This document shows, piece after piece, positions 11,176 to 52,174 of a DNA stretch of 64,000 bases; the first letter of the stretch is position 1, and each line of letters starts with the position of its first letter. The translations under genes were made by a program, and so were the position numbers. This DNA comes from Aurantiacibacter zhengii (lineage in GTDB: Bacteria; Pseudomonadota; Alphaproteobacteria; Sphingomonadales; Sphingomonadaceae), in the NCBI RefSeq assembly GCF_003584125.1, contig NZ_QXFL01000002.1, positions 1 through 64,000 of the forward strand, given 5' to 3'. The notes below the pieces were generated by a model that worked only from the letters and a program-made list of their open reading frames with translations, was not told the origin of the DNA and did no database searches.

Positions 11176-11222
<47 letters not shown>

Positions 11223-11274
11223 TTAGTCGGAATGACGGATTTCTGCGGGTTTCCGTGCCGCAAACCTTCCAACT

Positions 11275-12567
11275 TTAGCCGATTTGTTCGGATTTGTTGG
11301 AAGGGTCTTTCTTTGCAATGCGAGGCTCCAGGCTGGCGACCACGGCGTTGGCGGTGATAGTCGGATCAACCGGACCATAGACGCGCAGCATTTCCTCGAT
11401 CGACCGGAGCGAGTGGCCGGTGAGCGAGGCAATCATTTCCTTGGGCATACCGCGACGGCGCAGGCGGACAACGCGCGTGCGGCGCAAGTCGTGCCAGACC
11501 AGCTCGCGCATGTGCGGCCGCCCGGTTGCCTTCGCGGCGTGGGCGAGGATCCTGCCCCACACGTCGATGAAGTGGCGTTGCTTCCACGGAAGGCCAGTCT
11601 TGTCGTTGACTATGACATGGGTGAGCAGACGCGGCGGATCGGCCGCGCGATCGCGCGCGCGATTGGTGCGGATGGCGCGCTCGATCCGGCCGAGAAGATC
11701 CGGCTCGATCGGGATTTCCAGGTTGACGCTCTTGTACTCGTTGCTGGTCTTGGCCTGCGACAGGCACCAGCCCATGACATTGCCGTTCTCGTCTTCCAGG
11801 CGTTCGCGCAGTACCGGCTCCAGAATATCCAGCGGTTGCAGCTGCGGTTCGGTAAAGGCGATAAGGTCGCCTTCGCGCTGCGCCGAGTAAAGTGCCAGTT
11901 CGCGGGCCAGCGCCATCGAGGGCCAGCCCAGCTCCCGCGCGGCCGCATCGAAAGCGGCGTCGTCTTCCACGGTCCATACCATGTTGCGCGGTGGCGGCTT
12001 CGCCAGGCCAAATTCGGTTGCCGGGTTGGTGCCCTTCGGGATCAGGTCCACGCTTTCGGCAAACTTGAACAGCTGGCGCAGGACCGACAGCAGGTTGAAC
12101 GCGGCCGAGTGCCCCAGTCCGCCTTCCTCGATCGGCTTGGCGGTCTTGTCGCGCAGCACGCCGACGCGCGCCGGGGTGACGTAAGGCAGCGGCTTGTCGC
12201 CCGCCCACATTTCGATGCGCTTGAGGCCGGTTTCATAGACCTCGCGCGTCTTCGGCTTGAGCCGGGGAATGCGCGTGCCCGGCTTCGTGCCGTTGACATA
12301 TTCCTTGCGGTAGCGCGCCACCAAGGCGGCGACGGTGCCCGCTGCGCGGCGTTTCTCCACCTTGGCGCGGATATCGCCGCCTGCCTTCCATCGGGCCACG
12401 TCCTCGTTGAGCTGGCGCGCGGCCATGATCGCCTTGCCCTCGTCCTTGCCCAGGGCAGTTGGTTCAAAACCGGCATCGCGCAGGGTCTTCGACGGTTGCC
12501 AGTACCAGCTGGTGCCGCTGGTCTTGCTGTGCTTGGGCACCAGGCGAGGGATGGATAGTTTAGCCAT
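11275..12567 (-). CDS. int: tyrosine recombinase (phage integrase)
   Basis: 430 residues. The N-terminal part (about 1-95) is an arm-binding-type domain, a SAM-like core-binding domain follows (about 100-190), and the catalytic domain carries the full set: Arg231 (YSAQREGD), Lys273, His359 and Arg362 (WHDLRRTR), His385 (LTGHS) and nucleophile Tyr397 (RVYG). It integrates and, with a partner, excises the prophage at tRNA-Pro. The gene ends 52 bp from attL and its start overlaps the preceding small gene by one base (TGATG), so it is expressed as the end of the leftward early operon. Confidence 0.95.
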   Translation of the reverse strand: MAKLSIPRLVPKHSKTSGTSWYWQPSKTLRDAGFEPTALGKDEGKAIMAARQLNEDVARWKAGGDIRAKVEKRRAAGTVAALVARYRKEYVNGTKPGTRIPRLKPKTREVYETGLKRIEMWAGDKPLPYVTPARVGVLRDKTAKPIEEGGLGHSAAFNLLSVLRQLFKFAESVDLIPKGTNPATEFGLAKPPPRNMVWTVEDDAAFDAAARELGWPSMALARELALYSAQREGDLIAFTEPQLQPLDILEPVLRERLEDENGNVMGWCLSQAKTSNEYKSVNLEIPIEPDLLGRIERAIRTNRARDRAADPPRLLTHVIVNDKTGLPWKQRHFIDVWGRILAHAAKATGRPHMRELVWHDLRRTRVVRLRRRGMPKEMIASLTGHSLRSIEEMLRVYGPVDPTITANAVVASLEPRIAKKDPSNKSEQIG

Positions 12568-12926
12568 CAGTCGTGTCCTACCGCTCCGCTACTTGAGGAC
12601 GTGCCTCCCCGCTTGCGGCCGCGCGCGTGGGCGCTCTTGCCGGCTTCCTGCTGGCGCTGGGTTTCGGTCATGTTGCCGGTGAAGGCGGGAGACAGGCGGC
12701 GCTCCAGCTCGCGGCAGATCCTCGCGTGCTGTTCCAGGGCCTTGGCGGTGTCGGCCAGGATCGAGGCGCTAACGGGCTTGTCGCCAGCGTAGAGGAAGCG
12801 GCCGTGACGATCGGAGAAGCTCAGCAAACGGGCGTGCTTGGCGATCCCGCCCAGCGCCTGGACGGCCATGCGGTACAGGTCGAGCTGGTCTTTGGGTTCG
12901 GCAGGTAATGGTGATGTGTCGGGCAT
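12567..12926 (-). CDS. phage hypothetical protein upstream of integrase
   Basis: 119 residues, not recognised. It has a helical, charged middle part (DTAKALEQHARICRELERRL) and a basic Ser/Gly-rich tail (ARGRKRGGTSSSSG). The TGATG overlap with int suggests translational coupling; an excisionase or integrase accessory role is possible by position only. The gene is preceded by the first copy of a repeated leader hairpin and AAAGGA. Confidence 0.7.
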   Translation of the reverse strand: MPDTSPLPAEPKDQLDLYRMAVQALGGIAKHARLLSFSDRHGRFLYAGDKPVSASILADTAKALEQHARICRELERRLSPAFTGNMTETQRQQEAGKSAHARGRKRGGTSSSSGAVGHD

Positions 12927-12969
12927 CGTTGGGTCCTTTCGACCAATCGCCGGGCCTCATGCCCTGGCG
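12927..12969 (-). promoter_or_regulatory. leader element A: hairpin plus AAAGGACC
   Basis: On the minus strand the leader reads CGCC(A)GGGC-ATGAG-GCCCGGCG, a stem of 8 bp with one bulged base, then about 10 nt, then AAAGGACC and the start codon at 12926. The same layout recurs before the genes starting at 24579 and 25700. The outermost stem pair differs from copy B but keeps pairing, which supports an RNA structure. Confidence 0.6.
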
Positions 12970-12993
12970 TGAAACGTGTTAGCGCGGTGGTGG

Positions 12994-13032
12994 CTGTTGG
13001 GCAAGGTGGTTCAAGACTGTTGGGCAAGGTGG
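12994..13032. repeat. two direct copies of a 16-bp sequence
   Basis: CTGTTGGGCAAGGTGG occurs at 12994-13009 and 13017-13032, a period of 23 bp. The right copy encodes the end of the gene at 13011-13478 and the left copy lies just past its stop codon, so the coding tail HLAQQ is echoed downstream. It may be a recent local duplication or a pair of protein-binding sites. Confidence 0.6.
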
Positions 13033-13478
13033 GCGGTGCCATTATCAGCCTCTATTCCCTCGGCGCGAACCCATTCGTCGGCGTGGCGCTTGCATAGCGC
13101 GTCATTGTCTAAAACCGTGACGGCAGGGCCCGAACACTGAAAGCATTTGCCCGCCAAAACCTTACGAACCACGCCAAGCCATAAGGAGGCTTCGTTGTGT
13201 TCCGCGTTGTGAATCGACAGCATGGCACCAGAAGCACCACGATGCATTGCCAAGGTGTGGTTGCGACGGGCGGACAAATGCCGCTCCAAGGCAACTAGAC
13301 TATCCCGCAGCAACGCATCGGCGCTATCTGTGCTGCCTAGTGCTGCGCGGGCCGCTTCCCGATATTCTTGCTGTTCAAGATCGCCGATGTGGTTCCACTT
13401 GTAGCCGGGCGTTCCCTTCCAATCCCGCTCGCAAATTGCCTTCGCCGCCGCCTCAACGCGCGCTTCGTTTGGGATCAT
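13011..13478 (-). CDS. phage hypothetical protein
   Basis: The ATG at 13478 (MIPNEARVEAAAKAICERDW) overlaps the previous stop as ATGA and gives 155 residues. The opening resembles a motif common in phage-encoded small proteins (ARVEAAAKAICERD...W). A cysteine group, CFQCSGPAV...CKRHADEW, near residues 120-145 could bind zinc. No function is recognised. Confidence 0.75.
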   Translation of the reverse strand: MIPNEARVEAAAKAICERDWKGTPGYKWNHIGDLEQQEYREAARAALGSTDSADALLRDSLVALERHLSARRNHTLAMHRGASGAMLSIHNAEHNEASLWLGVVRKVLAGKCFQCSGPAVTVLDNDALCKRHADEWVRAEGIEADNGTAHLAQQS

Positions 13479-14083
13479 ATCGCCAGCTCCTGTTGGCCGC
13501 CCACGGCGGCGGGGTGGATCCTTTCCACCTTCATTTCGTCGCGCACGGTGCGTTCCCATTCGTCCAGCTGCTGGTCGAGCGCGCGGGCGAGCTGGAATTG
13601 CAGCCATTCGTGGCGGGCCTCGGCCTCGGCCGGGGTGCGATCGTTCGTCAGCCAGATCCTCGGCCGGGCGCCGGTGGCGGATATCCAGTCGAAACCATCC
13701 TCGTAGATCGCCAGCAAGGCACGCAGCGCGGTGTTCTGGCTTTCGGCGTCGTCGGCCGCCAGGCGGCCTTCGGCAATCAACCGCGGATAGACCTTGCCGC
13801 GCCATTCCAGTTCGCGCAGCAAGCCCACGCGGCGGGCCTTCCACGGCAGGGTGTGCGTCGGCTCCACCCGCTTGCCGGGCGTGCGGTGGATGGCCTCCAC
13901 CCGGTCGATATCCTCCAGCCAGGCGCGGGCGATCGCCAGCTGGCGGTCGGCCTCGTCCTGGTGCAGCCGCCCTTCGCTGACGCGGCCGGGATAGACGCGC
14001 TCGCGCTGGGCCAGCTCGCGCGCGACCTCGCGGCGGACCTGGGCCAGCGTGACGGCGGGGAAGAAGCGGTGCGCGGGGGTCAC
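13475..14083 (-). CDS. phage hypothetical protein, helical
   Basis: 202 residues, rich in Arg, Glu and Ala, predicted mostly helical. It contains VTLAQVRREVARELAQRERVY and a related segment RLLRELEWRGKVYPRLIAEG, suggesting an internal repeat of a helical unit with the pattern VYPxx(I/V)xEGRL (twice, at about 30-45 and 95-110). It sits between two genes with ATGA overlaps on both sides. No family is recognised. Confidence 0.75.
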   Translation of the reverse strand: MTPAHRFFPAVTLAQVRREVARELAQRERVYPGRVSEGRLHQDEADRQLAIARAWLEDIDRVEAIHRTPGKRVEPTHTLPWKARRVGLLRELEWRGKVYPRLIAEGRLAADDAESQNTALRALLAIYEDGFDWISATGARPRIWLTNDRTPAEAEARHEWLQFQLARALDQQLDEWERTVRDEMKVERIHPAAVGGQQELAI

Positions 14084-14646
14084 GTCAACCGCCCCTTGCG
14101 GTGCTGTGTCTGCGCGTGCCGATAGGCTTGACGAGAGGGGTAATCCTCGCGCTTGATTGGCGACGGTTCGGCCAACTTTCGCAGGATCGCTTCCTTCTGT
14201 GCGTCGATTTCAGCCAATTCGCGCTGTAACTCCGCCAGTCTCTGCGACTTTACGGTTTCAAAAGCAGAGGAAAGCCCATCTTCCGGGGACTGCCACCCGG
14301 CCTTGGCATCGCCGCCGCCAATCTGGCGAAGCATCAGGCCGCCTTTCTTCACGTGTTCGGCGGACCATTCGGAAAGGCCGTCCAACGTGTCGGGCCGATA
14401 CCATTCGTGCGTCGGCTCCATCCAGCCAGCTACGCGGTAGAACTTGGACTTAGCCATTGCGTCGCAGTTACCGCAACCTACCATGAAGGGTGTAACGCCC
14501 GGCTCACGATCCACGGTGACGATGAAGGAAGCGCAGTCGTCACATTGATAGGCGTTTTTGCGCTTCGCGTTTTCGAAGCCATCGGCTCCGTTGTAATGTT
14601 CGCGCGCTCGCTGCCTGACTGCCTCGATATCGTAGCTCGTTCCCAT
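14080..14646 (-). CDS. phage hypothetical zinc-ribbon protein
   Basis: The ATG at 14646 (MGTSYDIEAVRQRAREHYNG) gives 188 residues. Two CxxC knuckles, CDDC (about 35-38) and CGNC (about 58-61), look like a zinc ribbon. The segment FYRVAGWMEPTHEWYRPDTL and a coiled-coil stretch (AELQRELAEIDAQKEAILRK) follow, and the C-terminus is basic. It overlaps both neighbours in the operon. No biochemical role can be assigned. Confidence 0.75.
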   Translation of the reverse strand: MGTSYDIEAVRQRAREHYNGADGFENAKRKNAYQCDDCASFIVTVDREPGVTPFMVGCGNCDAMAKSKFYRVAGWMEPTHEWYRPDTLDGLSEWSAEHVKKGGLMLRQIGGGDAKAGWQSPEDGLSSAFETVKSQRLAELQRELAEIDAQKEAILRKLAEPSPIKREDYPSRQAYRHAQTQHRKGRLT

Positions 14647-14966
14647 CAGTCGTTCACTCCGTATTCTTCCAGCTCGCCGGGGCAGCTGCATTCGGCGTCG
14701 GTGTTGCCGCAGGTGCTGCATTCATCGGCCGGCCGTTGGTTGGGATCGGGGCAATGGCCAGCGGCGCGCAGGGCGGCGAGCATGGCAATGGATCCTTCCC
14801 GCACCAGGCTGTCGCGCTTGATATCGGGCATCGGGCTGTCGTTCAGATAACCCTGGATCCGGCGCACGCTGGCGGGCTTGATACCCAGCTCGCGGGCGAT
14901 CGAAGTGTAGTGCCTGCCCTGTGAAGTCAGGTCGCAGATGCGTTGTTCGTTGGATCCCAGGCCCAT
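14646..14966 (-). CDS. small HTH protein with a C-terminal cysteine cluster
   Basis: The ATG at 14966 overlaps the upstream stop as TGATG; a GTG one codon earlier is less likely. The 106-residue protein has a helix-turn-helix near 12-42 (HYTSIARELGIKPASVRRIQ), similar to resolvase-type or Trp-repressor-like HTHs, and a Cys cluster near the end (CSTCGNTDAECSC). It may be an early regulator or an excisionase-like DNA-binding protein. Confidence 0.75.
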   Translation of the reverse strand: MGLGSNEQRICDLTSQGRHYTSIARELGIKPASVRRIQGYLNDSPMPDIKRDSLVREGSIAMLAALRAAGHCPDPNQRPADECSTCGNTDAECSCPGELEEYGVND

Positions 14967-15130
14967 CACGCCTTCCCCCAGCTGAATGCGGCGAAGCGCT
15001 GGCGCACTTCCTCGAATGCGAGGCGCAGGCCATGGGCCTTGCGTGCCAGCTTGATCGTCTGTCCGATGCTGGTGCCGTTGCGCCAGTAGTCGAACAGCAC
15101 GGTGTCGGTGTCGGTGCCGGGCGCGTGCAT
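14966..15130 (-). CDS. 54-residue phage hypothetical protein
   Basis: A short frame fits exactly between two genes with TGATG overlaps at both ends (start ATG at 15130, stop ending at 14966). The protein starts [19 protein letters not shown] and has a likely helix-turn-helix-like middle (SIGQTIKLARKAHGL) and an amphipathic end (EEVRQRFAAF). The perfect coupling at both ends is the main support. Function unknown. Confidence 0.65.
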   Translation of the reverse strand: MHAPGTDTDTVLFDYWRNGTSIGQTIKLARKAHGLRLAFEEVRQRFAAFSWGKA

Positions 15131-15606
15131 CAGCCCATCCCCAGCGCGGCTTTGTAGGTGTCCAGGATCATTTCCTGTTCGGCGCGATCGTTGGCGTCCA
15201 TCTTTCGCAGGCGGACGATCTGGCGCATGATCTTGGTGTCGTAGCCCACGGCCTTGGCCTCGGAATAAACGTCGCGGATATCGTCCGCGATCCCCTTCTT
15301 TTCTTCCTCCAGGCGCTCGATCCGCTCCAGCAGCAGGCGCAGGCGATCATCGGCGGCGGTGTCGCGCGCGGGCTTGCGACCGGAATTGTCGCCAATGCCG
15401 GGGCGGCGGTTGCCTTCTGCGTCCAGCAGGATCTGGCGGGCACCGGGTTGCGGGCCGACAACCTCGGCCTGCTCCAGCTCCTGCATCAGATCCATGGCCG
15501 TCTGCTTGCGAATGCCCAGCTCGCGCGCGAGCATGGAAGCGCTGGCTTCCTGCCGTTCCAAGACAAGCGCGCGGGCGCGGTCGAACAGGTCTTGCGGGTC
15601 GGTCAT
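15130..15606 (-). CDS. FtsK-gamma winged helix fused to a GapR (DUF2312) domain
   Basis: 158 residues. Residues about 5-60 match the FtsK/SpoIIIE gamma domain: [20 protein letters not shown], then [19 protein letters not shown], the last part being the characteristic VVGP turn. In FtsK this winged helix reads KOPS/SRS DNA motifs. After a linker with GIGDNSG, residues about 85-157 match GapR/DUF2312: [40 protein letters not shown] and the final [10 protein letters not shown]. GapR binds overtwisted AT-rich DNA in Caulobacter. A GapR-type clamp guided by a sequence-reading winged helix is an inference. It is the eighth gene from the leftward promoter in a chain of ATGA/TGATG overlaps. Confidence 0.85.
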
Positions 15607-15953
15607 GCCCGGCTCCCCATCCCGGCTGCCACCATGGCTTTCTGTGCCTCTGCGCGGCCGTTGGCGATCCCGGCTTCCATCGCGGCCATTACGGTATGGC
15701 GGATCTGTTCCAGGTCCGCGTCTTCATCGAGCGCGCCCAGGGTGAGCATGTGGCCGACGGTGTAGCCGGAGAACATCGCGCCTGCGGTAATCAGGTAGCT
15801 TTGGTGCATGGCGAAGGCATCCGCGCTTTGCTGCCCGGCGCGTTCCAGCGCTGGCCCGACCACCATCCGTATCAGCGTGATGTAGTCGAGGATCTGTTTC
15901 ATAGCGGCCGGATCTTCGACGGCGTTGAGAACGGGCGTTGGATCCTTTTTCAT
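15603..15953 (-). CDS. phage hypothetical protein
   Basis: From ATG 15953, 116 residues, starting [21 protein letters not shown] hydrophobic central part ([15 protein letters not shown] and [19 protein letters not shown]) could be membrane-associated or a buried helix; the C-terminus ([20 protein letters not shown]) is helical. It overlaps neighbours by 4 nt on both sides. Not recognised. Confidence 0.7.
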
Positions 15954-16417
15954 TCCCCGGCCTCTGCGATGGTGCTGGGGAATGTTTCGGCGTCGTCGTG
16001 CGTCAGCAGCTCGTAGCCTTTCACCCCGGCGACGAAGATGGCGGCTAGGACAATCAGGATCATGCAGCCGCACAGCGCATCGCTCATGCGGTCGCGGCCC
16101 TTGCCGACCAGGTATTCGTCGGCCTCGCGCTGGAGCCATTCGGGGTAGTCTCGATCTTCCATAAGCCAGTCTCGCATCATGTGGGGCGCATCCCATCGGG
16201 ACGGATCGGGCTGCGCGGTGGTGTTGGTGGCCAGCCAGTCGCGCGCATCGCGGCAGGCGCGGCGATGTTCGGGACGGTTCTGGATCTTCCAGGCGGACAG
16301 AATGCGGTTGCGCAGCTTCCACGGCAGCGTGCGGAAGCAAGAGGGGCACAAGCGCTGCCAGCGTTCGCGCTGGTGGGTGCAGCCGGGCACGTCGCAAATG
16401 TGCTGCCGCTTGCCCAT
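15950..16417 (-). CDS. phage protein with N-terminal zinc finger and C-terminal membrane helix
   Basis: The ATG at 16417 gives 155 residues. Cys8, Cys13, Cys24 and Cys27 (CDVPGC and CPSC) form a plausible zinc site next to basic residues (WKLRNRILSAWK). The segment RDYPEWLQREADEYL follows, and a single hydrophobic helix (CGCMILIVLAAIFVAGV) lies near residues 122-140. The combination suggests a membrane-anchored nucleic-acid or protein-binding factor. No good Shine-Dalgarno sequence precedes it; upstream is a structured 243-nt spacer. Confidence 0.65.
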   Translation of the reverse strand: MGKRQHICDVPGCTHQRERWQRLCPSCFRTLPWKLRNRILSAWKIQNRPEHRRACRDARDWLATNTTAQPDPSRWDAPHMMRDWLMEDRDYPEWLQREADEYLVGKGRDRMSDALCGCMILIVLAAIFVAGVKGYELLTHDDAETFPSTIAEAGE

Positions 16418-16660
16418 GTCACGGCCTGCAACGGGGAAGTGGGCACCGGGACAGTGGCCACCGGAAAGACAAAGTGCGCCGCCCGGCCCAACTGGAGGTA
16501 AAGCCGGGCGGCGCGAGGTCGGCCCGAATGGCCGACTTGCCGTGCGCGGCCGGGTCGTAATCGCCGCGTCGGTCAAGTATGGCTCCCCGCCCGCCAGCAC
16601 CGGGGATCGGTGCTTTCGCTATCTTTGAGCATCGGGGTTGAAACGGGCGGGGAAACTGGG
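16418..16660 (-). other. gene-free spacer with several perfect hairpins
   Basis: I see no convincing coding frame in these 243 nt. It holds three inverted repeats: GCGCCGCCCGGC (16476-16487) with its complement at 16503-16514; TCCCCGCCCG (16584-16593) with 16644-16653; and, inside the latter, GCACCG (16597-16602) with 16608-16613. They lie within the leftward early operon, so the transcript could fold here as an attenuator, processing site or small RNA. The role is inferred. Confidence 0.45.
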
Positions 16661-16999
16661 TCACGGCCGCTGCGCTGCCTTGCGCAAGGCCTCTGCGGCA
16701 TCGCCGCCAGCCTGCTGGACGGCATCCAGCACTTCGGTCAGGCGCTTGCCCTGAAATTCAAGGAAGCTAGCAAGCGCAGCCCAGGCCGTTTGCCGCACGG
16801 CCATGCGCAGATCAGGGCGGGCGGTAATGATCTTGTCTTCCAGCGTCTCGAAAGCCTGCTCCGCCGCGAACAGCGCGCAGTCCACCGTCTCGATCGCGAG
16901 GGGTTCCGCCATGCCCTGCTGCACCAGCACCTTGACCAGTGCCGGGCGCACGGCCGCGCCGTTGAACGTGAGGGGATAGCGGGGGTTGTGCGCGTTCAT
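16661..16999 (-). CDS. phage hypothetical protein
   Basis: 112 residues starting MNAHNPRYPLTFNGAAVRPA. The second half is strongly helical (AFETLEDKI, ALASFLEFQGKRLTEVLDAV, AEALRKAAQ). It starts inside the end of the preceding gene (ATGA). Not recognised. Confidence 0.65.
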   Translation of the reverse strand: MNAHNPRYPLTFNGAAVRPALVKVLVQQGMAEPLAIETVDCALFAAEQAFETLEDKIITARPDLRMAVRQTAWAALASFLEFQGKRLTEVLDAVQQAGGDAAEALRKAAQRP

Positions 17000-17400
17000 C
17001 CCTCGCGCCCTCCGACCAGGTGCAGGTGGCAGGCGGCCTCGTCCATGTCGTTGGCGGCCTCGCGCATCGCGCTGGCTTCGACCTGGGCAGCGTTGGCGGG
17101 CGGCAGGAAGTCTTCAAACCAGGCATCGACCGCGTGGGCAGGCCACTGGCTTTTCGGGTGCGGTTCGCAGCACAGCCGGGCGCGCGGCAGCGGGGTGCTG
17201 CGATCCTTGCGCCGGGGCTGCACGTGGCGCGGAAGCGGGGGTGGAAAGCCCTGATCGTCAATCAGCAGCTGGAGATAGGCGCAGAAGCGATCATCGGAAT
17301 AGTCGGCCCGGCCGAAGCGCACGCGCAGCTTATGAAAGCCGATGGTGGGCGGTGCCTCGTCGGCATCGGTGATGGGCCAGGTGTCGGGATGCGATGGCAA
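16996..17400 (-). CDS. first gene of the leftward early operon, hypothetical
   Basis: 134 residues starting MPSHPDTWPITDADEAPPTI. The middle is Pro/Arg-rich (PPPLPRHVQPRRKDRST) and the C-terminus is acidic and helical. It lies directly downstream of the putative leftward promoter and its operator, so it should be among the first genes made on induction. No family is recognised. Confidence 0.65.
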   Translation of the reverse strand: MPSHPDTWPITDADEAPPTIGFHKLRVRFGRADYSDDRFCAYLQLLIDDQGFPPPLPRHVQPRRKDRSTPLPRARLCCEPHPKSQWPAHAVDAWFEDFLPPANAAQVEASAMREAANDMDEAACHLHLVGGREG

Positions 17401-17430
17401 GACGGCCTCCGTTCGTTGTGACGGAGCCGA

Positions 17431-17458
17431 GTTGTAAGCATAACGCTTACAGTGTCAA
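17431..17458 (-). promoter_or_regulatory. putative early leftward promoter (PL-like)
   Basis: On the minus strand TTGACA (17458-17453) is followed after 16 nt by TACAAC (17436-17431). Operator 17434-17450 covers the spacer and part of the -10 box, so a bound repressor would block it. The transcript would begin just before the gene starting at 17400. Confidence 0.6.
17434..17450. promoter_or_regulatory. operator 1, 17-bp palindrome GTAAGC-N5-GCTTAC
   Basis: GTAAGC and GCTTAC are perfect complements around ATAAC. Two more copies with the form GTwAGC-N5-GCTwAC lie at 17467 and 18076, flanking the repressor gene. It is the expected size for a dimeric XRE-family repressor. Confidence 0.75.
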
Positions 17459-17466
17459 TCAAAAAT

Positions 17467-17483
17467 GTAAGCTATATGCTAAC
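17467..17483. promoter_or_regulatory. operator 2, GTAAGC-N5-GCTAAC
   Basis: Same 17-bp form as operator 1 with one altered base in the right arm. It lies 33 bp (about three helical turns) from operator 1, upstream of the leftward promoter, and overlaps the stop codon of the 61-residue gene. The spacing would allow cooperative binding on one face of DNA. Confidence 0.65.
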
Positions 17484-17657
17484 AGCTACTCCCAGCGCGA
17501 TCGGCAGGGCGATCAATACCGCCAGGGCATGGCACGCGAGATCCCGCGCGCGGGTGGTGGGCACGGTGCGCAGGCGCAGCAGCAGGTAGGCGACGGGCCA
17601 GAGGCCGAAGGTGACAGCGAGGCAGACGAACAGCTGGGCGCCGGACAGGTGCGGCAT
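17472..17657 (-). CDS. small two-helix membrane protein coupled to the repressor
   Basis: 61 residues with two hydrophobic segments, LFVCLAVTFGLWPVAYLLL (about 9-28) and ALAVLIALPIALGVAVS (about 44-60), joined by a basic loop. The start codon overlaps the repressor stop (TGATG), so it should be made in the lysogen together with the repressor. Small membrane proteins expressed this way are often superinfection-exclusion factors; that role is inferred. Confidence 0.65.
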   Translation of the reverse strand: MPHLSGAQLFVCLAVTFGLWPVAYLLLRLRTVPTTRARDLACHALAVLIALPIALGVAVSI

Positions 17658-18037
17658 CAGGCGGCCGCTTCGTCGCGCTCGTCTTCCGGGCCTTTCCAGG
17701 GAACGATAACGTCGGCCACCTTGCGCACCTGATCGCGCTGGTCGTCCGAGGCGGCGCGCAACTGGTCTATCAGCGCGCGTTCCTGCGCGGTGAGTGCATA
17801 GGGATTGTCCTGCCGCGAAAGCAGATCGGCCGACTGGACGCCCAGCGCCTGGGCAATGCGGCGCATGTAATCGGTATCGAGCCGCATCTTGCCGCGTTCC
17901 AGGTCCGATATCGTCACCTTGGAAACGCCAATGGCATCGGCAACGGCCTGTTGGGAAAGGCCAGCTTCGTTCCGCAACTCGCGGATCCTGTTGGGTGCTT
18001 TGTCCACACAGGAGAAGTGTAAGATTTCCGCTGACAC
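17657..18037 (-). CDS. CI-like XRE-family prophage repressor
   Basis: 126 residues. The HTH_3 domain spans about 15-72: RIRELRNEAGLSQQAVADAI, then VSKVTISDLERGKMRL. The C-terminal part is short and helical with no LexA-type Ser/Lys protease signature, so induction is probably not by RecA-driven self-cleavage. The start is GTG at 18037 with no clear Shine-Dalgarno sequence; a TTGACA at 18072-18067 would place the RNA 5' end close to the start codon, hinting at a leaderless message. It maintains lysogeny by binding the 17-bp operators. Confidence 0.85.
   Translation of the reverse strand: MSAEILHFSCVDKAPNRIRELRNEAGLSQQAVADAIGVSKVTISDLERGKMRLDTDYMRRIAQALGVQSADLLSRQDNPYALTAQERALIDQLRAASDDQRDQVRKVADVIVPWKGPEDERDEAAA
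18019..18035. promoter_or_regulatory. weak operator-like site in the repressor start region
   Basis: GTAAGA-TTTCC-GCTGAC fits the operator consensus with one mismatch per arm and covers the first codons of the repressor gene. It could serve autoregulation, but the match may be chance. Confidence 0.3.
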
Positions 18038-18065
18038 GGCTAGACGCCTAATCGCTTACGTGCGC

Positions 18066-18095
18066 TTGTCAAGTTGTTAGCGTATCGCTTACACC
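18066..18095 (+). promoter_or_regulatory. putative early rightward promoter (PR-like)
   Basis: TTGTCA (18066-18071), an 18-nt spacer and TACACC (18090-18095) precede the Cro-like gene. The match is weaker than the leftward promoter, but operator 18076-18092 lies over the spacer and -10 box in the same way. Confidence 0.4.
18076..18092. promoter_or_regulatory. operator 3, GTTAGC-N5-GCTTAC
   Basis: A third 17-bp palindrome of the GTwAGC-N5-GCTwAC form, between the divergent repressor and Cro-like genes and over the probable rightward promoter. Confidence 0.7.
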
Positions 18096-18120
18096 GGCTG
18101 TCCAACCACCGGAGCGCGCG

Positions 18121-18417
18121 ATGCACCCCCTTAAAGAATGGCGACTGGCGAACAACCTGACACTGGCCCAGGCGGCGCAGCGCGTCGGCACGTCGCGCCA
18201 GGTGTGGTTCGACTGGGAAGGACGCCGCCGCATTCCCAGCGCCACGTTCATGCCGCGTATCAAGCACGTGACGGGCGGCGAAGTGACCGCCGACGATTTT
18301 TACTGTGGAAAAAACGACGACGATTGCCGTCATTCCGTACCCTCCCCAATTACCCCGAACAACCGTTTGAAATCAAAGGATGAAGGATACGTTAAGGCTG
18401 CGGGAGCGGCGCGGTGA
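18121..18417 (+). CDS. Cro-like XRE DNA-binding protein
   Basis: 98 residues starting MHPLKEWRLANNLTLAQAAQ, with a compact HTH ending near residue 55 (SRQVWFDWEGRRRIPSATFM). It is divergent from the repressor with operator 3 between them, the position of cro in lambdoid phages. It likely competes for the operators to commit the phage to lysis. Residues 60-98 are hydrophilic and without known similarity. GGAG at 18111-18114 is the ribosome site. Confidence 0.8.
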   Translation: MHPLKEWRLANNLTLAQAAQRVGTSRQVWFDWEGRRRIPSATFMPRIKHVTGGEVTADDFYCGKNDDDCRHSVPSPITPNNRLKSKDEGYVKAAGAAR

Positions 18418-18653
18418 TTGGCGGGATTGCCATTGTCGGATCGCGGCCGCCCGCTGGCCAGCATGGATCCAGCGAAAGCGATTGGCGCGTGCTGGTGTTG
18501 GTCAGCGCGCCGCCCGGCAAGCTGGAACAATTCGAGTTCTCACCTGCCGAAGCGCGCAGCCTTGCGGCCGAGCTGGAAGAGTACGCCGGAGTTTGTGAAC
18601 GCCAGCACGCTGCGCTTGAACGCCATGCGGCCGAGCAGGAGGCGAGCCGGTGA
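18414..18653 (+). CDS. phage hypothetical protein
   Basis: 79 residues from a GTG that overlaps the cro-like stop (GTGA). The C-terminal half is an acidic helix (EFSPAEARSLAAELEEYAGV). The end overlaps the primase start as TGATG. Unrecognised; possibly a replication accessory protein by position. Confidence 0.65.
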   Translation: MIGGIAIVGSRPPAGQHGSSESDWRVLVLVSAPPGKLEQFEFSPAEARSLAAELEEYAGVCERQHAALERHAAEQEASR

Positions 18654-19759
18654 TGGAAGTCTCCGAGATTGCCGACCGTTACAACCAGCTGGCCGAGACA
18701 GAAGCGCCGCGCCTGCTGCCCAACGGGCACCGTTCGGGCAATTACTGGATGGCCAGCGGCATTGCCGACACCGGCCGCAGCGCCAGCCTGGCCGTCTATC
18801 TGAAAGGCCCGGCCGTGGGGCACTGGCAGGACCATGGCAACGCGGCGAGCCGGGACGAGGAAAAGGGCGACCTGCTGGACCTGTTGCGGCTGACGCAGCA
18901 CGGTGGCGACATGCGTGCGGCGCTGGCCGAGGCCAAGAGCGTGCTGGGGATCGAGGACGATTTCCGGCCGGGCCAGCGCACCGAGCTATCGCCGGAGGAA
19001 CGCGAGCGCCGGGCGCGCGAGGCGCAGGAGCGCGCGCGGGCGCAGGAAGAAAGGCTGGCGGCCGAACGCGCGAAGAAGGCGGGCAATGCCAAGCGGCTGT
19101 ACCTGCATGGCGTGCCCATTGTCGGCACCGGGGCGGAGCAATACCTGCTGGGCCGCCAGATCCCCGCGCTGCCCGGTGCCAAGCCCTGGCCCGGTTCGCT
19201 GCGCTTTGTCGAGGCGATCACGTACAAGCCGCTGGGTATCAAGACACCGGCCATGCTGGGCGCGGTATTCACCGCCGAGGGCGAGCAGATCGGGACGCAC
19301 CGCACGTTCCTGGCGCAGCGGGACGGCGCGTGGCGGAAGATCGACCACGAACCGGCCAAGATGATGCTGGGCAACAAGGCGGGCGGGTTCATCCCCATCC
19401 ACCAGGGCAGCAGCGGCAAGTCGATGCGCGACATGCCCGAAGGCGAGCCTGTCTATATCACGGAAGGGATCGAGGACGCGCTGTGCGTGCGCGGGCTGCG
19501 GCCGGACAAGCGGATCGTGGCGGCGATCGACCTGGGCAACATCGGCGCGCTGATCTTGCCGGAGCGCGTGCGCGAACTGGTGATCGTGGCCGACCGCGAC
19601 CAGGGCGAGAAAGCCCAGGCTGCGCTGGAGCGCGCCATCGCCGCGCAGCAGGCGCGCGGGCTGCGGGTGCAGCTGGTGATGCCACCGGCCACCGTGGGCG
19701 GGCAGGCCATCAAGGATATCAACGACTGGGTGCGCGCGGCGCGCGGGGAGGCAGCATAG
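18653..19759 (+). CDS. phage primase-like protein with TOPRIM domain
   Basis: The ATG at 18653 gives 368 residues. The N-terminal region (GNYWMASGIADTGRSASLAV, VGHWQDHGNAASRDEEKGDL) resembles the DNA-interacting part of phage/plasmid primases. A charged coiled coil covers about 110-150. The TOPRIM core follows, with the catalytic glutamate in PVYITEGIEDAL and the DxD motif in ELVIVADRDQG. It would make primers at the phage origin. No zinc finger is seen, unlike T7 gp4. The helicase partner is two genes downstream. Confidence 0.85.
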   Translation: MEVSEIADRYNQLAETEAPRLLPNGHRSGNYWMASGIADTGRSASLAVYLKGPAVGHWQDHGNAASRDEEKGDLLDLLRLTQHGGDMRAALAEAKSVLGIEDDFRPGQRTELSPEERERRAREAQERARAQEERLAAERAKKAGNAKRLYLHGVPIVGTGAEQYLLGRQIPALPGAKPWPGSLRFVEAITYKPLGIKTPAMLGAVFTAEGEQIGTHRTFLAQRDGAWRKIDHEPAKMMLGNKAGGFIPIHQGSSGKSMRDMPEGEPVYITEGIEDALCVRGLRPDKRIVAAIDLGNIGALILPERVRELVIVADRDQGEKAQAALERAIAAQQARGLRVQLVMPPATVGGQAIKDINDWVRAARGEAA

Positions 19760-20385
19760 TGGGCAAGGAGTACGCCTGGAGCTGGGCCGATTACGAGCGC
19801 GAGGAACGCAAGCGCAAGGCCAGGCTGGAAAAGAAGGCCAAGCGCGCGCGCGCGATCGAGCAGCTGCAACCGGATCCCGCGCCCGAACCTGTCGAGGCAG
19901 AGCCGGAACGGCGCGAAGCGCCGCAAGCGCAGCCGCGCGCCGGAGCCAATGCGACGAGCCAAGCGGGCGGACGCCCGCGCCCGGCGCATGAGGGACCAAG
20001 AAAGAACAACCCAATACTTCCACCGGAGAATTCAACAGCCGACAGCGCGGGCGGCTGCGAAGGGCAGGCTCCAGCAGGACCAAAGGGGCCGGTGGAAGTC
20101 TCAGGGCGTGTACCCCGGAAAGCCTGCCAACCGCGCAACCATACCAGGCCCATGCCGAACGGACGGCGCATAGATCTATCGGGCGCAAAGAGCCTGATGG
20201 AGGAAAGCGTGCGCCTGTCCGTCAAGGACACCCCCAGCTCGGCCCCGGCCCCGCGCCGGTTCGACGGCGCAACCGCGCTGTGCCGGTGTGGTGGCAAGGG
20301 CGCGAACAGTACCGGGCCGGTGCCCGCCTGGTTCGGAAAAGACTGCATCGAAGGCGATTGCCCGCTGAAAAAGGAGCTGCATTGA
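19759..20385 (+). CDS. basic, proline-rich phage protein with a C-terminal Cys cluster
   Basis: A GTG at 19759 overlapping the primase stop (TAGTG) begins 208 residues: MGKEYAWSWADYEREERKRK, a long Pro/Ala/Arg-rich low-complexity middle, and a C-terminal CRCGGKG...CIEGDCPLKK that could hold zinc. It lies between the primase-like and helicase-like genes with overlaps at both ends. Function unknown; a single-strand-DNA or primase accessory role is possible. Confidence 0.6.
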   Translation: MGKEYAWSWADYEREERKRKARLEKKAKRARAIEQLQPDPAPEPVEAEPERREAPQAQPRAGANATSQAGGRPRPAHEGPRKNNPILPPENSTADSAGGCEGQAPAGPKGPVEVSGRVPRKACQPRNHTRPMPNGRRIDLSGAKSLMEESVRLSVKDTPSSAPAPRRFDGATALCRCGGKGANSTGPVPAWFGKDCIEGDCPLKKELH

Positions 20386-20909
20386 TGTTGCTTGCGAGGG
20401 ACGCCGACCGCCACGCGCTGCTGCAAGAGATTGCCACCCTGATGCAGCGCTATCCGGCGCTGACCTATACCCGGATCGGGGTCGAGGCGGCGAACGATAC
20501 CCGCCTGGTGTTCGACCTGAAGAACGGCCGCACGCCGAACGCGCGGGTGACGCGCAATCTTTGTGACTGGATCAGGGGGATGAAAACAATGCGGGTCACG
20601 GTGAAGCCGCCCTACTCGGCCGCGCAGCTGCGCGCGCTGTTGCTGCTGGACCTGGCCCTACCGGTGCTGGACGATTACCTGGTGACGCGCTTGCAGGTGA
20701 GCCGCGACACGCTGCGCGGCCTGCTGGACATGGGCCTGGCAGAAAGCGAGACGATCAATCCCGCCGTGCCGTCGCCGCTGCGCGTCGTGCGCCTGACCGA
20801 CCAGGGCCACCGCGCCAAGCAAGCCTATTTGCGCTGGCTGCGCGCCGATCCGGCCCGCATCGAGCGGCTGCCCTGCCTCGTACGCGCCGTCGTCAAGAGG
20901 AACCCATGA
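20385..20909 (+). CDS. phage hypothetical protein with winged-helix-like region
   Basis: The ATG at 20385 (TGATG overlap) gives 174 residues. Residues about 80-160 look like a winged helix (DYLVTRLQVSRDTLRGLLDM then VVRLTDQGHRAKQAYLRWL), as in MarR-like or replication-initiator domains. The N-terminal half has no recognisable motif. It ends overlapping the helicase start by ATGA and may load or regulate it. Confidence 0.65.
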   Translation: MLLARDADRHALLQEIATLMQRYPALTYTRIGVEAANDTRLVFDLKNGRTPNARVTRNLCDWIRGMKTMRVTVKPPYSAAQLRALLLLDLALPVLDDYLVTRLQVSRDTLRGLLDMGLAESETINPAVPSPLRVVRLTDQGHRAKQAYLRWLRADPARIERLPCLVRAVVKRNP

Positions 20910-22903
20910 GCAGCGCTGGCGAAGGCGGCATTGCCGCAATCGGCGCGGCGCTGGACAATCCGCAGGACGCGCCGACCATGGCCGAGGCGGGCGACCATAC
21001 GGCCGACCTGGAGCAGCGCGAGCGGCCGCCCTTCCCGCCCGGCTGCCCGGTGACGCCGCTGGGCATTGCCAGCGGCCTGGACGGCAGCCAGGTGTGTTTC
21101 TACCTCGACGTGAACGGCCAGCTGGTGGGACTGGAAGCCGGGCATCGCCACGGCAAGAACAGCCTGATTGCCCTGTTCGGCCGCGCCAGCGACTGGCTGG
21201 AGGCGAACTTTCCGCAGTATTCCAAGCCGGTGTACGAAGGCACCGGCAAAGCGCGCAGGATGGTGCGGCCGTCGCAGATCGTGGGCTTCGACCAGGCCGA
21301 GGCCTCGCGCGCGTTGATCGAGGAATGTTCCAACCGCGGAATTTTCGACCCCGCTGGCAAGATGCGCGGCCCCGGTGCCCATCGCCAGCGCGGCGGCGGC
21401 ATGGTGCTGCATTGCGGCGACAAGCTGATGGCGAGCGAGCATGACGTGACCACCGGCAAGTTCAAGCGCTGGACCTGGCGCGATCCCGGCCGCCATGAAG
21501 ACAACGTGTACACCGCCAAGTCTCCCATTCCCCGGCCGTGGCACGAGCCGGTGGAACCGGAAGCGGCGCGCAAATTCCTGGTGAGCCTGCTGGGAACGTG
21601 GAACTGGAAGCGCAAGACGCTGGACCCGCGCTTGGTGCTGGGTGCCATCGGTGCCAGCCTGATAGGGGGCTGGCTGCCCTGGCGCCCCAACATCATCGTT
21701 ACCGGCAGCCGGGGCACCGGCAAGTCGACACTGAACGGTGAAAACGGCGTGCTGGACCAGCTGCTGGGTGCCGGGCAATTCCGCACCGACAACACCAGCG
21801 CGGCCGCGATCCGTTCCAGCCTGCTCAATTCCACCGTGCCGGTGATGCTGGACGAGCTGGAAGCCGAGGTGGACAGTCGGCGCGTGATCGAGGTTATCGA
21901 GACGGCGCGCGTTTCATCGAGCGGCGGCAAGATCACGCGATCGAGCGCGGAGCAGAAGACGAAGGAATTTACCCTTCGCAGCGTGTTCTGGATGAGCATG
22001 ATTAACCCGCCCCCGCTGAAACCGCAGGACCGCAGCCGCCTGGCTATCTGCGAGCTGAAAAAGCTGCCCAAGGATGCCAAGCCGCTGGTGCTGGCGGACT
22101 GGAACCTGCCGCAGCTGGGCCGCAAGTTGCAGCGCCGGATGCTGGACCAGCTCTTTCGTCTGGAAGCGACCAAGGCGAAGTTTCACGCTGGATTGCAGGC
22201 GGCCGGGCACGACGCGCGCGCGTGCGACCAGTTTGGCTGGCTGCTGGCGTGCGCCGACGCGCTGATCTTTGACCGCAACGGCGCGGCCGACGACGAGGAA
22301 GTGCAGCACTGGGCCGACCATTGCAGGCCGGAGCGCATGGCCGAAATCAGCAACGAGGACAGCGACGACATGCTGTGCCTTAGCCACCTTATGACGCAGG
22401 AAGTGCAGGCGCGCGGCGGCGACGAAAGGGTGACGCTGGGCACGTGGATAGGCGGCGGCGTGCGCTATGCCATGGCCCCGTTGCTTCCCAGCGATGAACG
22501 GCCCGGCGACGAGAACGCCGACCGGCGATTGCAGGAGCTGGGGCTAAAGATCGTGAACGCCAAGTGGAACCCGGCCGCGAACAAGGGGCAAGGTGGCTGG
22601 GGCACGGCGGCATACAACCATGAAGAACCCGGCTTTCTGGCGGTGAGCGCCAGCCACAACGCGGTAAAGCGCCTGTTCGCCCCTACGACCTGGCAGGAAG
22701 GCAACCACATGCGCGCGCTGGGCCGCTGCGAGAACGCCATCGAAAGCGTTGCCGCCGTGAAGTTCCGGTACAGTACGCAGCGCGCGGTGCTGGTGCCGCT
22801 GTACCTGGTGCTGGACGAAGACGAGCTGCCGAACGCGAGCCAGAAAAAGGCCCACGCTGCATGGTTCGCAGCATGGGCCGAGGAATACGGACAGGAGGGT
22901 TGA
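20906..22903 (+). CDS. D5-like phage helicase/ATPase
   Basis: 665 residues. A P-loop, GSRGTGKST (about 267-275), and a Walker-B-like VPVMLDELEAE identify an SF3/AAA+-type ATPase; WMSMINPPPL and RSRLAICEL follow as sensor-like parts. The N-terminal 220 residues could be a primase-associated or collar domain. It most likely unwinds DNA at the phage origin with the TOPRIM primase-like protein. No phage DNA polymerase is present, so replication presumably borrows the host replisome. Confidence 0.8.
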   Translation: MSSAGEGGIAAIGAALDNPQDAPTMAEAGDHTADLEQRERPPFPPGCPVTPLGIASGLDGSQVCFYLDVNGQLVGLEAGHRHGKNSLIALFGRASDWLEANFPQYSKPVYEGTGKARRMVRPSQIVGFDQAEASRALIEECSNRGIFDPAGKMRGPGAHRQRGGGMVLHCGDKLMASEHDVTTGKFKRWTWRDPGRHEDNVYTAKSPIPRPWHEPVEPEAARKFLVSLLGTWNWKRKTLDPRLVLGAIGASLIGGWLPWRPNIIVTGSRGTGKSTLNGENGVLDQLLGAGQFRTDNTSAAAIRSSLLNSTVPVMLDELEAEVDSRRVIEVIETARVSSSGGKITRSSAEQKTKEFTLRSVFWMSMINPPPLKPQDRSRLAICELKKLPKDAKPLVLADWNLPQLGRKLQRRMLDQLFRLEATKAKFHAGLQAAGHDARACDQFGWLLACADALIFDRNGAADDEEVQHWADHCRPERMAEISNEDSDDMLCLSHLMTQEVQARGGDERVTLGTWIGGGVRYAMAPLLPSDERPGDENADRRLQELGLKIVNAKWNPAANKGQGGWGTAAYNHEEPGFLAVSASHNAVKRLFAPTTWQEGNHMRALGRCENAIESVAAVKFRYSTQRAVLVPLYLVLDEDELPNASQKKAHAAWFAAWAEEYGQEG

Positions 22904-22907
22904 TAGA

Positions 22908-23825
22908 GTGCAGGAGCAAACGGAAATGAGTGAGTACGCGCCCGATATCGTGATTTATCATGACAAGTGCATGGACGGCTTTACCGCTGCCTGGGCAATC
23001 TGGAAGCGGTGGGGCAATGCGCCTGACTACGTAGCCCGAAACTATGGCATGGCCCCCGATATCGACGCCGACGGCAAGCATGTGCTGATTGTCGACTTCT
23101 CATTCCCGGAAGAACAGTTGCGCGCGCTGGCGACGGACGGCGCTGCCTCGATCATCGTCCTTGACCACCACAAGACAGCTGCTGCGGATCTAGAGCCGTT
23201 CCGATGCTTCAAAGAAAAGCCGGAGCGTTTCAAGGCGCGGGTTGTGGCCGCGATGTGTGCGGATCTAAAAAAGAACGGCTATCCTGCTATTCTCGCGCTG
23301 TTCGATATGGAGCGCAGCGGCGCAGGCCTCGCTTGGGATTTTGCCTTTCCCTACGATGAAAAGCCGCCTCTGGTGGCGCTGGTGCAAGACCGCGACCTGT
23401 GGCGCTTCGCTTTGGGTGACGGCGGCAAGTTCCTGCACCTGGCGCTTACGAGCGGCCCTGCCGCGTTCGACCGCTGGGATGAAGTCGACCGCGATATTGA
23501 TGCCTTTATCGAGATCGGCCGCGCTATCGCTGCGTACCGCGATCAGCTGGTGGACGAGATCTGCGAGCGCGCTGTCTGCGTCGTGATTGACGGCAAATAT
23601 GGCATGGGCGTTGACTGCCCGTATGGACTGGCCAGCGATGTGGGCCATCGCTTATTGAGCGATTGGCCTGATACGGAGTTTGCAGCGGCGATCGTGCGCG
23701 GCGAGCATTCCGTTAGCTATTCGCTGCGCTCCCGCGACGATCGCGCAGACGTGTCCGCCATCGCCAAAAAGTTTGGCGGCGGCGGACACCGGAACGCGGC
23801 GGGCTTCAAGGTGCCTCGCACTTAG
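22908..23825 (+). CDS. DHH/DHHA1 family phosphoesterase
   Basis: 305 residues from GTG 22908 (GGAGGG 8 nt upstream); ATG 22926 with its own AGGAG is an alternative. Motifs: YHDKCMDGFTAAW, LIVDFSFP, VLDHHKT (the DHH signature) and GGGGHRNAAGF (DHHA1 glycine-rich motif). The family includes RecJ, NrnA-type oligoribonucleases and cyclic-dinucleotide phosphodiesterases and needs Mn2+. The short two-domain form is closest to NrnA. In the phage it may recycle nucleotides or destroy a signalling nucleotide. Its stop overlaps the stop of the convergent gene. Confidence 0.85.
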   Translation: MQEQTEMSEYAPDIVIYHDKCMDGFTAAWAIWKRWGNAPDYVARNYGMAPDIDADGKHVLIVDFSFPEEQLRALATDGAASIIVLDHHKTAAADLEPFRCFKEKPERFKARVVAAMCADLKKNGYPAILALFDMERSGAGLAWDFAFPYDEKPPLVALVQDRDLWRFALGDGGKFLHLALTSGPAAFDRWDEVDRDIDAFIEIGRAIAAYRDQLVDEICERAVCVVIDGKYGMGVDCPYGLASDVGHRLLSDWPDTEFAAAIVRGEHSVSYSLRSRDDRADVSAIAKKFGGGGHRNAAGFKVPRT

Positions 23826-24301
23826 CTCCATTCCAGGTTGAGCTTGAGCTGTTCGACAATGGACGCGGTGCGTTCCATCGCGGCAAGCTGGGCTTTCAGC
23901 GCGGGGCCGTCCTCCGGGTGGCAATCGACGCCCCAGGGGTAGCCTTCCGGCATTTCACGCTCAAAGCCGCCTGTGCGGATTATCAACCGGGCAATCACTT
24001 CGCCCGCGAAGGTGGTGTGGAACCCTAGCCCGTCGCTGCACTGGTAATTGGCGCAACAGGCCTGCACGTGGAGAAAGTCCGGCTCGATGTTGCCGCGCCA
24101 TGGCCGGTAGCGGTAGCGCCGCGCCTGGGCCTCTCCATCGGCGGCCGCGCCGTGGCGGTCCTCATAGGTGGAACGTACCGCGCGGGCGTTCTCCACCAGG
24201 ATGGCATGGCCCACGGCTTGCGGGTCTGCATCGGGGTTTTGCTGCACGTAGGCTGTCGCCAGCAGGTCCGCGTGCGCGTTAGTTATCATCCAGCAGGACA
24301 T
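23822..24301 (-). CDS. phage hypothetical protein of the ArdC operon
   Basis: 159 residues from ATG 24301, overlapping the previous stop (TAATG); an internal ATG (MITNAHADLLATAY) is possible. It contains paired cysteines (VQACCANYQCSD) and ends LAAMERTASIVEQLKLNLEW. Not assigned to a family. It is last in the operon led by the ArdC-like gene, suggesting a shared early or anti-host role. Confidence 0.7.
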   Translation of the reverse strand: MSCWMITNAHADLLATAYVQQNPDADPQAVGHAILVENARAVRSTYEDRHGAAADGEAQARRYRYRPWRGNIEPDFLHVQACCANYQCSDGLGFHTTFAGEVIARLIIRTGGFEREMPEGYPWGVDCHPEDGPALKAQLAAMERTASIVEQLKLNLEWS

Positions 24302-24579
24302 TAGCGCGCCTCCACTGCGTGAACGGGGAAAGCGTCGGCGCGGTGGCCTTGGCTTTCGTTGTACCAAGCGGCAAAGCTGGCGCTGTCTGTGACGGTTCCG
24401 GCCGGTGCTGGGCTGCAAAGGATCCTGCGGCCGTGGTGGAGGGTACCTAGAGCGCAGAATTCAACTGTCATGGCATATTGCGCCGCTCGCAGGTACGTAT
24501 CGAATTCGCGGCCGGTTTCGATGTATGCGCCGCAATCGTGCAGGCCGCGCGCGCTGTGTTTGATTACCTCGTAAGCCAT
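24301..24579 (-). CDS. small phage hypothetical protein of the ArdC operon
   Basis: 92 residues starting MAYEVIKHSARGLHDCGAYI. No motif is recognised. It is preceded by leader element B, with AAAGGA 9 nt before the ATG, and is coupled to the next gene by TAATG. Confidence 0.65.
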   Translation of the reverse strand: MAYEVIKHSARGLHDCGAYIETGREFDTYLRAAQYAMTVEFCALGTLHHGRRILCSPAPAGTVTDSASFAAWYNESQGHRADAFPVHAVEAR

Positions 24580-24624
24580 TGTCGGTCCTTTCTTTGACCA
24601 TTGGCCGGGCCTCGTGCCCTGGCC
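24580..24624 (-). promoter_or_regulatory. leader element B: hairpin plus AAAGGACC
   Basis: On the minus strand GGCC(A)GGGC-ACGAG-GCCCGGCC forms the same stem as element A, with the outer pair changed from C-G to G-C, followed by AATGGTC, AAAGGACC and the start codon at 24579. Confidence 0.6.
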
Positions 24625-24695
24625 TTGTGTTGCGGGTGCCTGGTGGCGCCTGCGATGGCGGCCGAACTGGTGAAACCCGGCCGCGTTCGCAACCG

Positions 24696-25700: not shown

Positions 25701-25747
25701 TGTGTGCGGTCCTTTCTAACCCTTCGCCGGGCCTGATGCCCTTGCGG
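25701..25747 (-). promoter_or_regulatory. leader element C: hairpin plus AAAGGACC
   Basis: Third copy of the leader: on the minus strand a GGGC-ATCAG-GCCC stem-loop, a weaker outer stem, GAAGGGTTAG, AAAGGACC and the ardC start at 25700. It lies directly downstream of the putative promoter at 25757-25785, so it would be at the very 5' end of that mRNA. Confidence 0.6.
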
Positions 25748-25756
25748 TAATTGATC

Positions 25757-25785
25757 CTATAAACGTGTTCTAATAAGTCTGTCAA
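25757..25785 (-). promoter_or_regulatory. sigma70-type promoter of the ArdC operon
   Basis: On the minus strand a perfect TTGACA (25785-25780), a 17-nt spacer and TTATAG (25762-25757). Transcription would start near 25750 and run through leader element C into ardC. Confidence 0.65.
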
Positions 25786-25806
25786 CCCCGGCCTGGTGAT
25801 TTTCCT

Positions 25807-25830
25807 GCAATGGCGGATTTCCGCCATTGC
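25807..25830. repeat. 24-bp palindrome with 11-bp arms
   Basis: GCAATGGCGGA (25807-25817) and its exact complement TCCGCCATTGC (25820-25830) are separated by only 2 bp. The tight centre fits a dimeric protein site better than an RNA hairpin. It lies about 20 bp upstream of the ardC -35 box. Confidence 0.6.
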
Positions 25831-25992
25831 CTAACAAAGATTGCGGCCGCAGCGATCGCGTAGCGATTGCGGTGCGCGGGCGCTCATTCTGACTGCCTGG
25901 CGCGCGTGTCTCTCGATTGTGCTTGACCCCGGCCCGTTGGCGGTGCCAGTAATTGGTCGCTCCAGATTGACGGCTGCGCATCGGGTTCGGAT

Positions 25993-26239: not shown

Positions 26240-26439
26240 GTGCTGCGCTTCGCCTGGTGCAGCTCGTCCAGGCGCATTGTTTGGCCGGTAGCTGGGCCTC
26301 GATCGTGGCGAGCTGGTCGACGGTGGCCGCTTTCGGGGTCCGATGATGGGGCGACCGGCGAAAGTTTCCGGGTTTTTGCCTGGGCGCGCGCGCCTGCTGG
26401 GGTGCTGGTCGAGCGGGCGTTTACGGATAGAGCTGGTGC

Positions 26440-52094: not shown

Positions 52095-52174
<80 letters not shown>

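Follow-up and report, generated by a model that had tools for sequence, protein, structure and literature searches.

Fusion gene and its domains

The window (the whole 64,000-nt stretch analysed here, positions 1 to 64,000 of Aurantiacibacter zhengii contig NZ_QXFL01000002.1) contains a prophage in which a single gene encodes the gamma domain of FtsK joined to the DNA clamp GapR. The first-pass annotation of this DNA had reported an open reading frame (ORF) with both domains at this place; its coordinates were right and the motifs it quoted are present in the translation, and the strand, which it had not stated, is minus. The two domains lie in one frame, both above their curated cut-offs, and the gene comprises the following features.

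15130..15606, minus strand: fusion gene, 158 amino acids (aa), with FtsK-gamma winged helix, linker and GapR (ORF translation and Pfam)
15433..15594, minus strand: FtsK_gamma domain, profile positions 4–59 of 63 (profile match; fold match to 2ve9/2ve8)
15469..15507, minus strand: recognition helix, residues 34–46, altered relative to FtsK and most other fusions (helix from the structure model; residue comparison)
15139..15354, minus strand: GapR DNA-binding domain, whole profile (profile match; identities to the host and relatives)

In Pfam searches, FtsK_gamma (PF09397) matched residues 5–58, inside the stretch 1–65 where it had been expected (E-value 1.3e-10, 41.3 bits against a curated cut-off of 30.6), and GapR_DNA-bd (PF10073) matched residues 85–156 (E-value 5.6e-35, 119.2 bits against a cut-off of 22.6, profile positions 1–72 of 72). 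Residues 5–58 also resembled HTH_13, MarR_2 and HTH_20, all below their cut-offs, and no match to the RecA-type motor (PF01580) was found by Pfam in the 158-aa protein. The protein exceeded the cut-off of the subfamily PRK13694 (116.5 bits against 94) and fell below that of the NCBI equivalog NucAsocGapRCau, the Caulobacter-type GapR (85.1 bits against 140). The PHROG family phrog_4212 aligned with residues 79–157 only, that is, with the GapR part (profile positions 273–351 of 353), and there was no end-to-end match. Structure prediction, which had been proposed as a check, bore out the gamma half: it has the FtsK-gamma winged-helix fold and matches 2ve9/2ve8. The model is a monomer with a disordered linker and a predicted template modelling score (pTM) of 0.41; the winged helix fills the match list of the comparison, which barely probes the GapR half.

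Support for the start at 15606 comes from the ATGA overlap with the upstream ORF and from two full-length relatives, P0004 and P0006, which are 66% and 62% identical to the fusion protein (alignment A1). P0005, a database form of the same protein, has 88 aa and begins in the linker, without the gamma half, so that the gamma domain is hidden in it. A word search with residues 1–80 alone yielded 68 candidates, none at E <= 0.001, and the gamma half of the window copy is therefore divergent. An IMG/VR search with the gamma domain of the window clade recovered the same prophage as its sole find (one of 88 stretches). A chance match to FtsK_gamma was considered and is ruled out by the profile, the fold and the full-length relatives. 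Profile searches of the host genome gave one further match per family at E <= 0.001, both on contig C28; the GapR frame is 97 aa long and the FtsK_gamma frame 802 aa. A GxGDNSG/GHNSG motif precedes GapR at residues 69–76 (about 15379–15402) and is also present in other phage GapR proteins, including some that lack an N-terminal domain or have another one.

Recurrence and partners of phage FtsK gamma

The gamma–GapR architecture is recurrent in phages, in either domain order. Both Pfam domains were detected in 42 of the 120 homologues listed (of 6051), and 54 of the 138 proteins gathered contained gamma and GapR (31 gamma-first, 23 GapR-first). Among annotated phages, 219 records matched a gamma–GapR query partly and 11 contained 80% or more of the query at a single place; all 11 are Rhodobacter phages by listing. 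The first-pass annotation had taken the fusion to be undescribed. Targeted literature searches, which covered few subscription papers and no preprints, indeed found no published description of a GapR and FtsK gamma fusion, nor any paper joining DUF2312/UPF0335 with FtsK, or RdgC with GapR or FtsK gamma; the fusion is not unique, however, given its recurrence in phages. A protein of Ruegeria phage 45A6 (ANH49054.1) combines gamma with GapR and fits phrog_4212, a PHROG annotated with unknown function, end to end. In Rhodobacter phage RcKvothe, gp58 (L148:4001–5326), annotated as hypothetical, holds two FtsK_gamma stretches and one GapR. On one viral contig, a separate 137-aa gamma-like ORF (L212:2850–3260) and a plain GapR gene are about 4.6 kb apart.

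The fusion is rare in genomes. A gamma–GapR profile, with eight candidates scored per genome, matched 310 of the 396 genomes of the order at E <= 1e-30, mostly via GapR alone; among the matches listed, only in the window and genome G156 are both halves covered with no intervening stop. A GapR–gamma profile matched two of the 396 at E <= 1e-48, with GapR and gamma in one frame in both. Class-wide, the gamma–GapR profile matched one of 385 genomes at E <= 1e-50, namely the window itself.

In IMG/VR, 251 stretches matched an FtsK-type signature, and 231 of them encode a relative; the figures given here are for the best 80 of the 231, ranked with an alphaproteobacterial gamma, which favours GapR. 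By Pfam, FtsK_gamma was present in all 80 proteins, GapR in 30, RdgC in 28 and the FtsK motor in two, and a few matched other single families. A home-made RdgC profile matched 26 of the 80, none of them overlapping the GapR set and all 26 with a C-terminal gamma. Neither partner was present in 24. RdgC joined to FtsK_gamma is a second recurrent phage combination, and RdgC, like GapR, encircles DNA. Vibrio phage K242 gp44 (L150:2918–4183) consists of RdgC and FtsK_gamma, and K242 also has ParA-like and ParB-like genes. In phi297, the gamma protein gp12 lies beside RecT, nuclease and SbcC-like genes.

Contact surfaces, origin and prophage setting

We compared the recognition surface of the gamma half at six positions, including Y1295 and E1303 (E. 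coli FtsK numbering), which we take to be relevant to FtsK-orienting polar sequences (KOPS). The 51 fusions outside the window clade keep Q1288 in 50 cases, R1289 in 51, G1294 in 46, Y1295 in 48, N1296 in 49 and E1303 in 47. At these positions the window protein has A, R, R, K, Q and Q, so that five of the six are changed (Q1288A, G1294R, Y1295K, N1296Q and E1303Q). Position 1292 is R in 25 of the 51 and G in 19; it is G in the window protein, as in the host's FtsK. R1289 and I1293 are kept. According to Table 1 of PMC5052618, the E. coli FtsK contacts to XerD are Q1288, R1289, R1292, I1293, G1294 and N1296, and passages of that paper describe them as a subset of the KOPS DNA contact residues, with R1289 the most critical XerD contact. 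Over 1288–1296 the window protein thus does not keep the contact surface of a KOPS/XerD reader. The suggestion that it reads KOPS-like motifs or steers host FtsK is unsupported for the window copy; for most other fusions, judged by their kept residues, it may apply. A1288, R1289, E1290 and K1295 are common to the window protein, P0004 and P0006, so that the surface of this clade is shared within it but different. On this residue comparison, the gamma half of the window protein is best read as a putative re-specified gamma-fold reader. In the 80 viral proteins, the search pattern itself set positions 1288–1296, so these are uninformative; E1303, outside the pattern, was kept in 30/30 GapR-fused and 46/50 other viral gamma proteins.

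The clamp half is conserved where it would touch DNA. Passages of PMC6853979 and PMC8510090 describe GapR as ring-shaped, with a DNA channel at its centre. All seven Caulobacter GapR DNA-contact positions, mapped by hand via the alignment, are K or R in the fusion (two of them K to R), and the three dimer salt bridges are kept. Sequence identity of the GapR half is 94.4% with host GapR (72 residues compared) and 97.2% with Aurantiacibacter spongiae GapR (P0014), as against 79.2% and 73.6% with the corresponding parts of P0004 and P0006; at the DNA level it shares 87.3% identity with host gapR across 228 nt. A GapR tree placed the window sequence among same-genus sequences, without strong support. 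From these identities and this position, the GapR half looks host-derived.

The tree comprised 92 of 250 distinct rows and 75 columns, with 62 of 89 inner branches drawn open. Its rows were the window, P0004, P0006, all 30 gamma-first, 14 of 26 GapR-first, 14 of 45 chromosomal (by label only), 25 of 72 viral and six other sequences; loci >20 kb, duplicates and annotated-phage loci, including RcKvothe and K242, were left out. A single GapR clade of all sampled fusions was rejected (approximately unbiased test, p-AU 7.7e-5), which fits repeated fusion, exchange or loss. A tree holding the window, P0004 and P0006 together was not rejected (p-AU 0.58) and was 4.7 log units better than the free tree. 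Separate capture of the GapR half, making the protein a mosaic relative to P0004 and P0006, is hinted at by the identities, and we do not claim it given this p-AU of 0.58.

The prophage is about 41 kb long and is bounded by a 47-bp exact repeat. The same element is present in IMG/VR as a 40,533-bp contig, identical over 14,320 compared bases, with its first end at window position 11275. Besides the integrase and CI-like repressor, its gene content includes a head–tail adaptor and tail proteins, a DHH phosphoesterase, primase-type genes and a match to a transglycosylase. The fusion is a minus-strand gene located between those for integrase and repressor; judged by this position, it is probably part of an early operon. 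Among the scanned operon neighbours other than integrase and repressor, two matched a PHROG weakly and none matched Pfam.

11176..11222, no strand: repeat copy 1, 47-bp exact, attachment site (repeat search)
11275..12567, minus strand: integrase (phrog_1, E-value 2.1e-22; Pfam Phage_integrase below cut-off)
14966..15130, minus strand: downstream ORF, 54 aa, overlapping the fusion stop by one base (TGATG)
15603..16397, minus strand: upstream ORF, 264 aa, no Pfam or PHROG match, overlapping the fusion start by ATGA
17657..18037, minus strand: CI-like repressor, HTH_3 (Pfam and PHROG)
18650..19759, plus strand: primase-type gene, divergent early operon (phrog_510)
52096..52142, no strand: repeat copy 2, 47-bp exact, overlapping the transfer RNA gene tRNA-Pro(TGG) at 52098–52174 (repeat search)

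A scan limited to sigma-70-type sites detected no promoter of this type in 17300–18500, and repeats in 11176–27000 were ordinary, with no repeated operator found. At 12994–13032 a 16-nt sequence is repeated exactly in direct orientation, 23 nt apart, and 26096–26137 holds a perfect inverted repeat (16 nt, loop of 10 nt).

Counts of GGGNAGGG on the plus/minus strands (order-3 expectation in brackets) were 0/5 (2.5/1.6) in the prophage, 0/1 (1.2/2.2) in the window flanks, 7/4 (6.1/3.6) in RcKvothe, 2/1 (0.8/0.3) in K242, 8/1 (4.0/2.1) in phi297 and 0/0 (2.4/2.9) in Ruegeria 45A6 (over 50.0 of 53.2 kb). We rejected KOPS enrichment as a feature of gamma-bearing phages, having found no consistent excess of GGGNAGGG, an E. 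coli motif that may not be that of alphaproteobacterial hosts. The few prophage sites, with hand-converted coordinates, all lie on the minus strand (18340–18347, 21029–21036, 28661–28668, 30409–30416 and 37828–37835).

Possible roles and comparison with known systems

We propose, with a probability of about 0.4, that the fusion is an early prophage DNA-architecture protein in which a host-type GapR clamp is joined to a re-specified gamma-fold reader. The C-terminal clamp would be intact and oligomerise around DNA, and could co-assemble with the host's nearly identical GapR into mixed tetramers. The gamma winged helix would place the clamp. Most relatives would do so with FtsK's own KOPS/XerD surface, for which host KOPS or XerD would be the simplest target; the altered surface of the window copy would instead direct it to another DNA site or another partner. 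The phage might thereby bring GapR, and via GapR gyrase or topoisomerase IV, to chosen DNA during replication or host takeover. Several points weigh against this proposal. None of 3018 octamers tested stood out as a target site (lowest p 0.024 before correction), and the repeats in 11176–27000 were ordinary, with no target site emerging from them. The domain arrangement was left unpredicted by the structure model because of the disordered linker and low pTM. Stimulation of gyrase and topoisomerase IV is, according to PMC8510090, a property of Caulobacter GapR and is carried over to the fusion by analogy, and the gamma half might have no role on DNA.

Among the alternatives, the leading one, though unlikely, is a local regulator whose winged helix binds a prophage operator while the GapR half mainly oligomerises. 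The sub-threshold resemblance of residues 5–58 to general winged-helix families and the location within the repressor–integrase interval suit it; the GapR DNA-contact residues, on the other hand, are kept beyond the needs of oligomerisation, and the scan of 17300–18500 for sigma-70-type sites and the search for a repeated operator were both negative. Somewhat less probable is interference with host GapR, whereby mixed tetramers would alter or disable the host clamp and gamma would add bulk or a tether. The near-identity to host GapR and the kept dimer salt bridges would allow this, but the gamma-type surface is common to three relatives of about 60% identity and so is seemingly under selection, and the GapR halves of many relatives are less like a given host's GapR.

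The original idea of a KOPS reader, in which gamma binds host KOPS so that the fusion sits on the loading sites of FtsK and hinders or steers it, we consider improbable here. It draws on the true FtsK-gamma fold, on the surface kept by other fusions (46–51 of 51 at the six positions) and on the single-strand placement of all five prophage GGGNAGGG sites; it is countered by the residues of the window copy and by site counts (five against 1.6 expected, none against 2.5) that are too low to judge by, for a motif that may differ in the host genus. It is very improbable that gamma, carried by GapR, activates XerCD recombination of the host with no need of FtsK: R1289 (PMC5052618) and I1293 are kept, yet Q1288, G1294 and N1296 are changed relative to both E. 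coli FtsK and the host's FtsK, and the phage has its own integrase and a tRNA attachment repeat. Hardly credible, finally, is an untranslated gamma half with the 88-aa form correct. The length listed for P0005 and the failure of residues 1–80 to find a relative speak for it, and they are outweighed by the profile and fold matches, the full-length P0004 and P0006 and the ATGA overlap at the start.

If the proposed DNA-architecture protein is real, joining GapR, which reads DNA shape and not sequence, to FtsK gamma, which reads sequence and direction, would create a topology clamp at chosen sites, a simple viral means of controlling supercoiling or occupying host segregation signals. More tentatively, FtsK gamma may serve phages as a portable loader, joined time and again to chromosome proteins that encircle DNA (GapR, RdgC), giving motorless sequence-guided rings, most of which would keep the host KOPS/XerD surface; the window clade would have a re-specified reader, with GapR from its own host's lineage, and would be a natural example of such a change. 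The repeated union of gamma with GapR or RdgC would give phage FtsK_gamma-like genes, whose role passages of PMC8190038 call unclear, a testable common purpose.

Compared with known systems, the fusion resembles Caulobacter GapR (PF10073, formerly DUF2312/UPF0335; 6jyk, 6ozz, 6cfy) in the whole profile and in DNA-contact and dimer residues, but is phage-borne, has a preceding gamma domain and scores below the NCBI equivalog cut-off. It matches the FtsK gamma domain (PF09397; 2ve8, 2ve9, 5dcf) in family score and fold and differs from FtsK in having no motor and a changed recognition surface; phage FtsK proteins with divergent gamma domains are described in passages of PMC3706429. ANH49054.1 of Ruegeria phage 45A6 (phrog_4212) has FtsK_gamma and GapR in the same order, but is 351 aa long with an extra N-terminal region, whereas the window protein matches that PHROG over 79–157 only. 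Erythrobacter phage R34L1 has a GapR, reported as the first in a phage, and the source passages (PMC12185513) do not mention a fusion. In Bacillus phages Sam46 and Sam112, passages of PMC8190038 describe gamma moved onto another phage protein, at the N terminus of the small terminase; there the partner is a packaging protein and the DNA-binding site of gamma is described as conserved. RdgC–FtsK_gamma phage proteins such as Vibrio phage K242 gp44 likewise combine, in an early region, gamma with a chromosome-binding protein, differing in the partner, RdgC, and in the C-terminal position of gamma.
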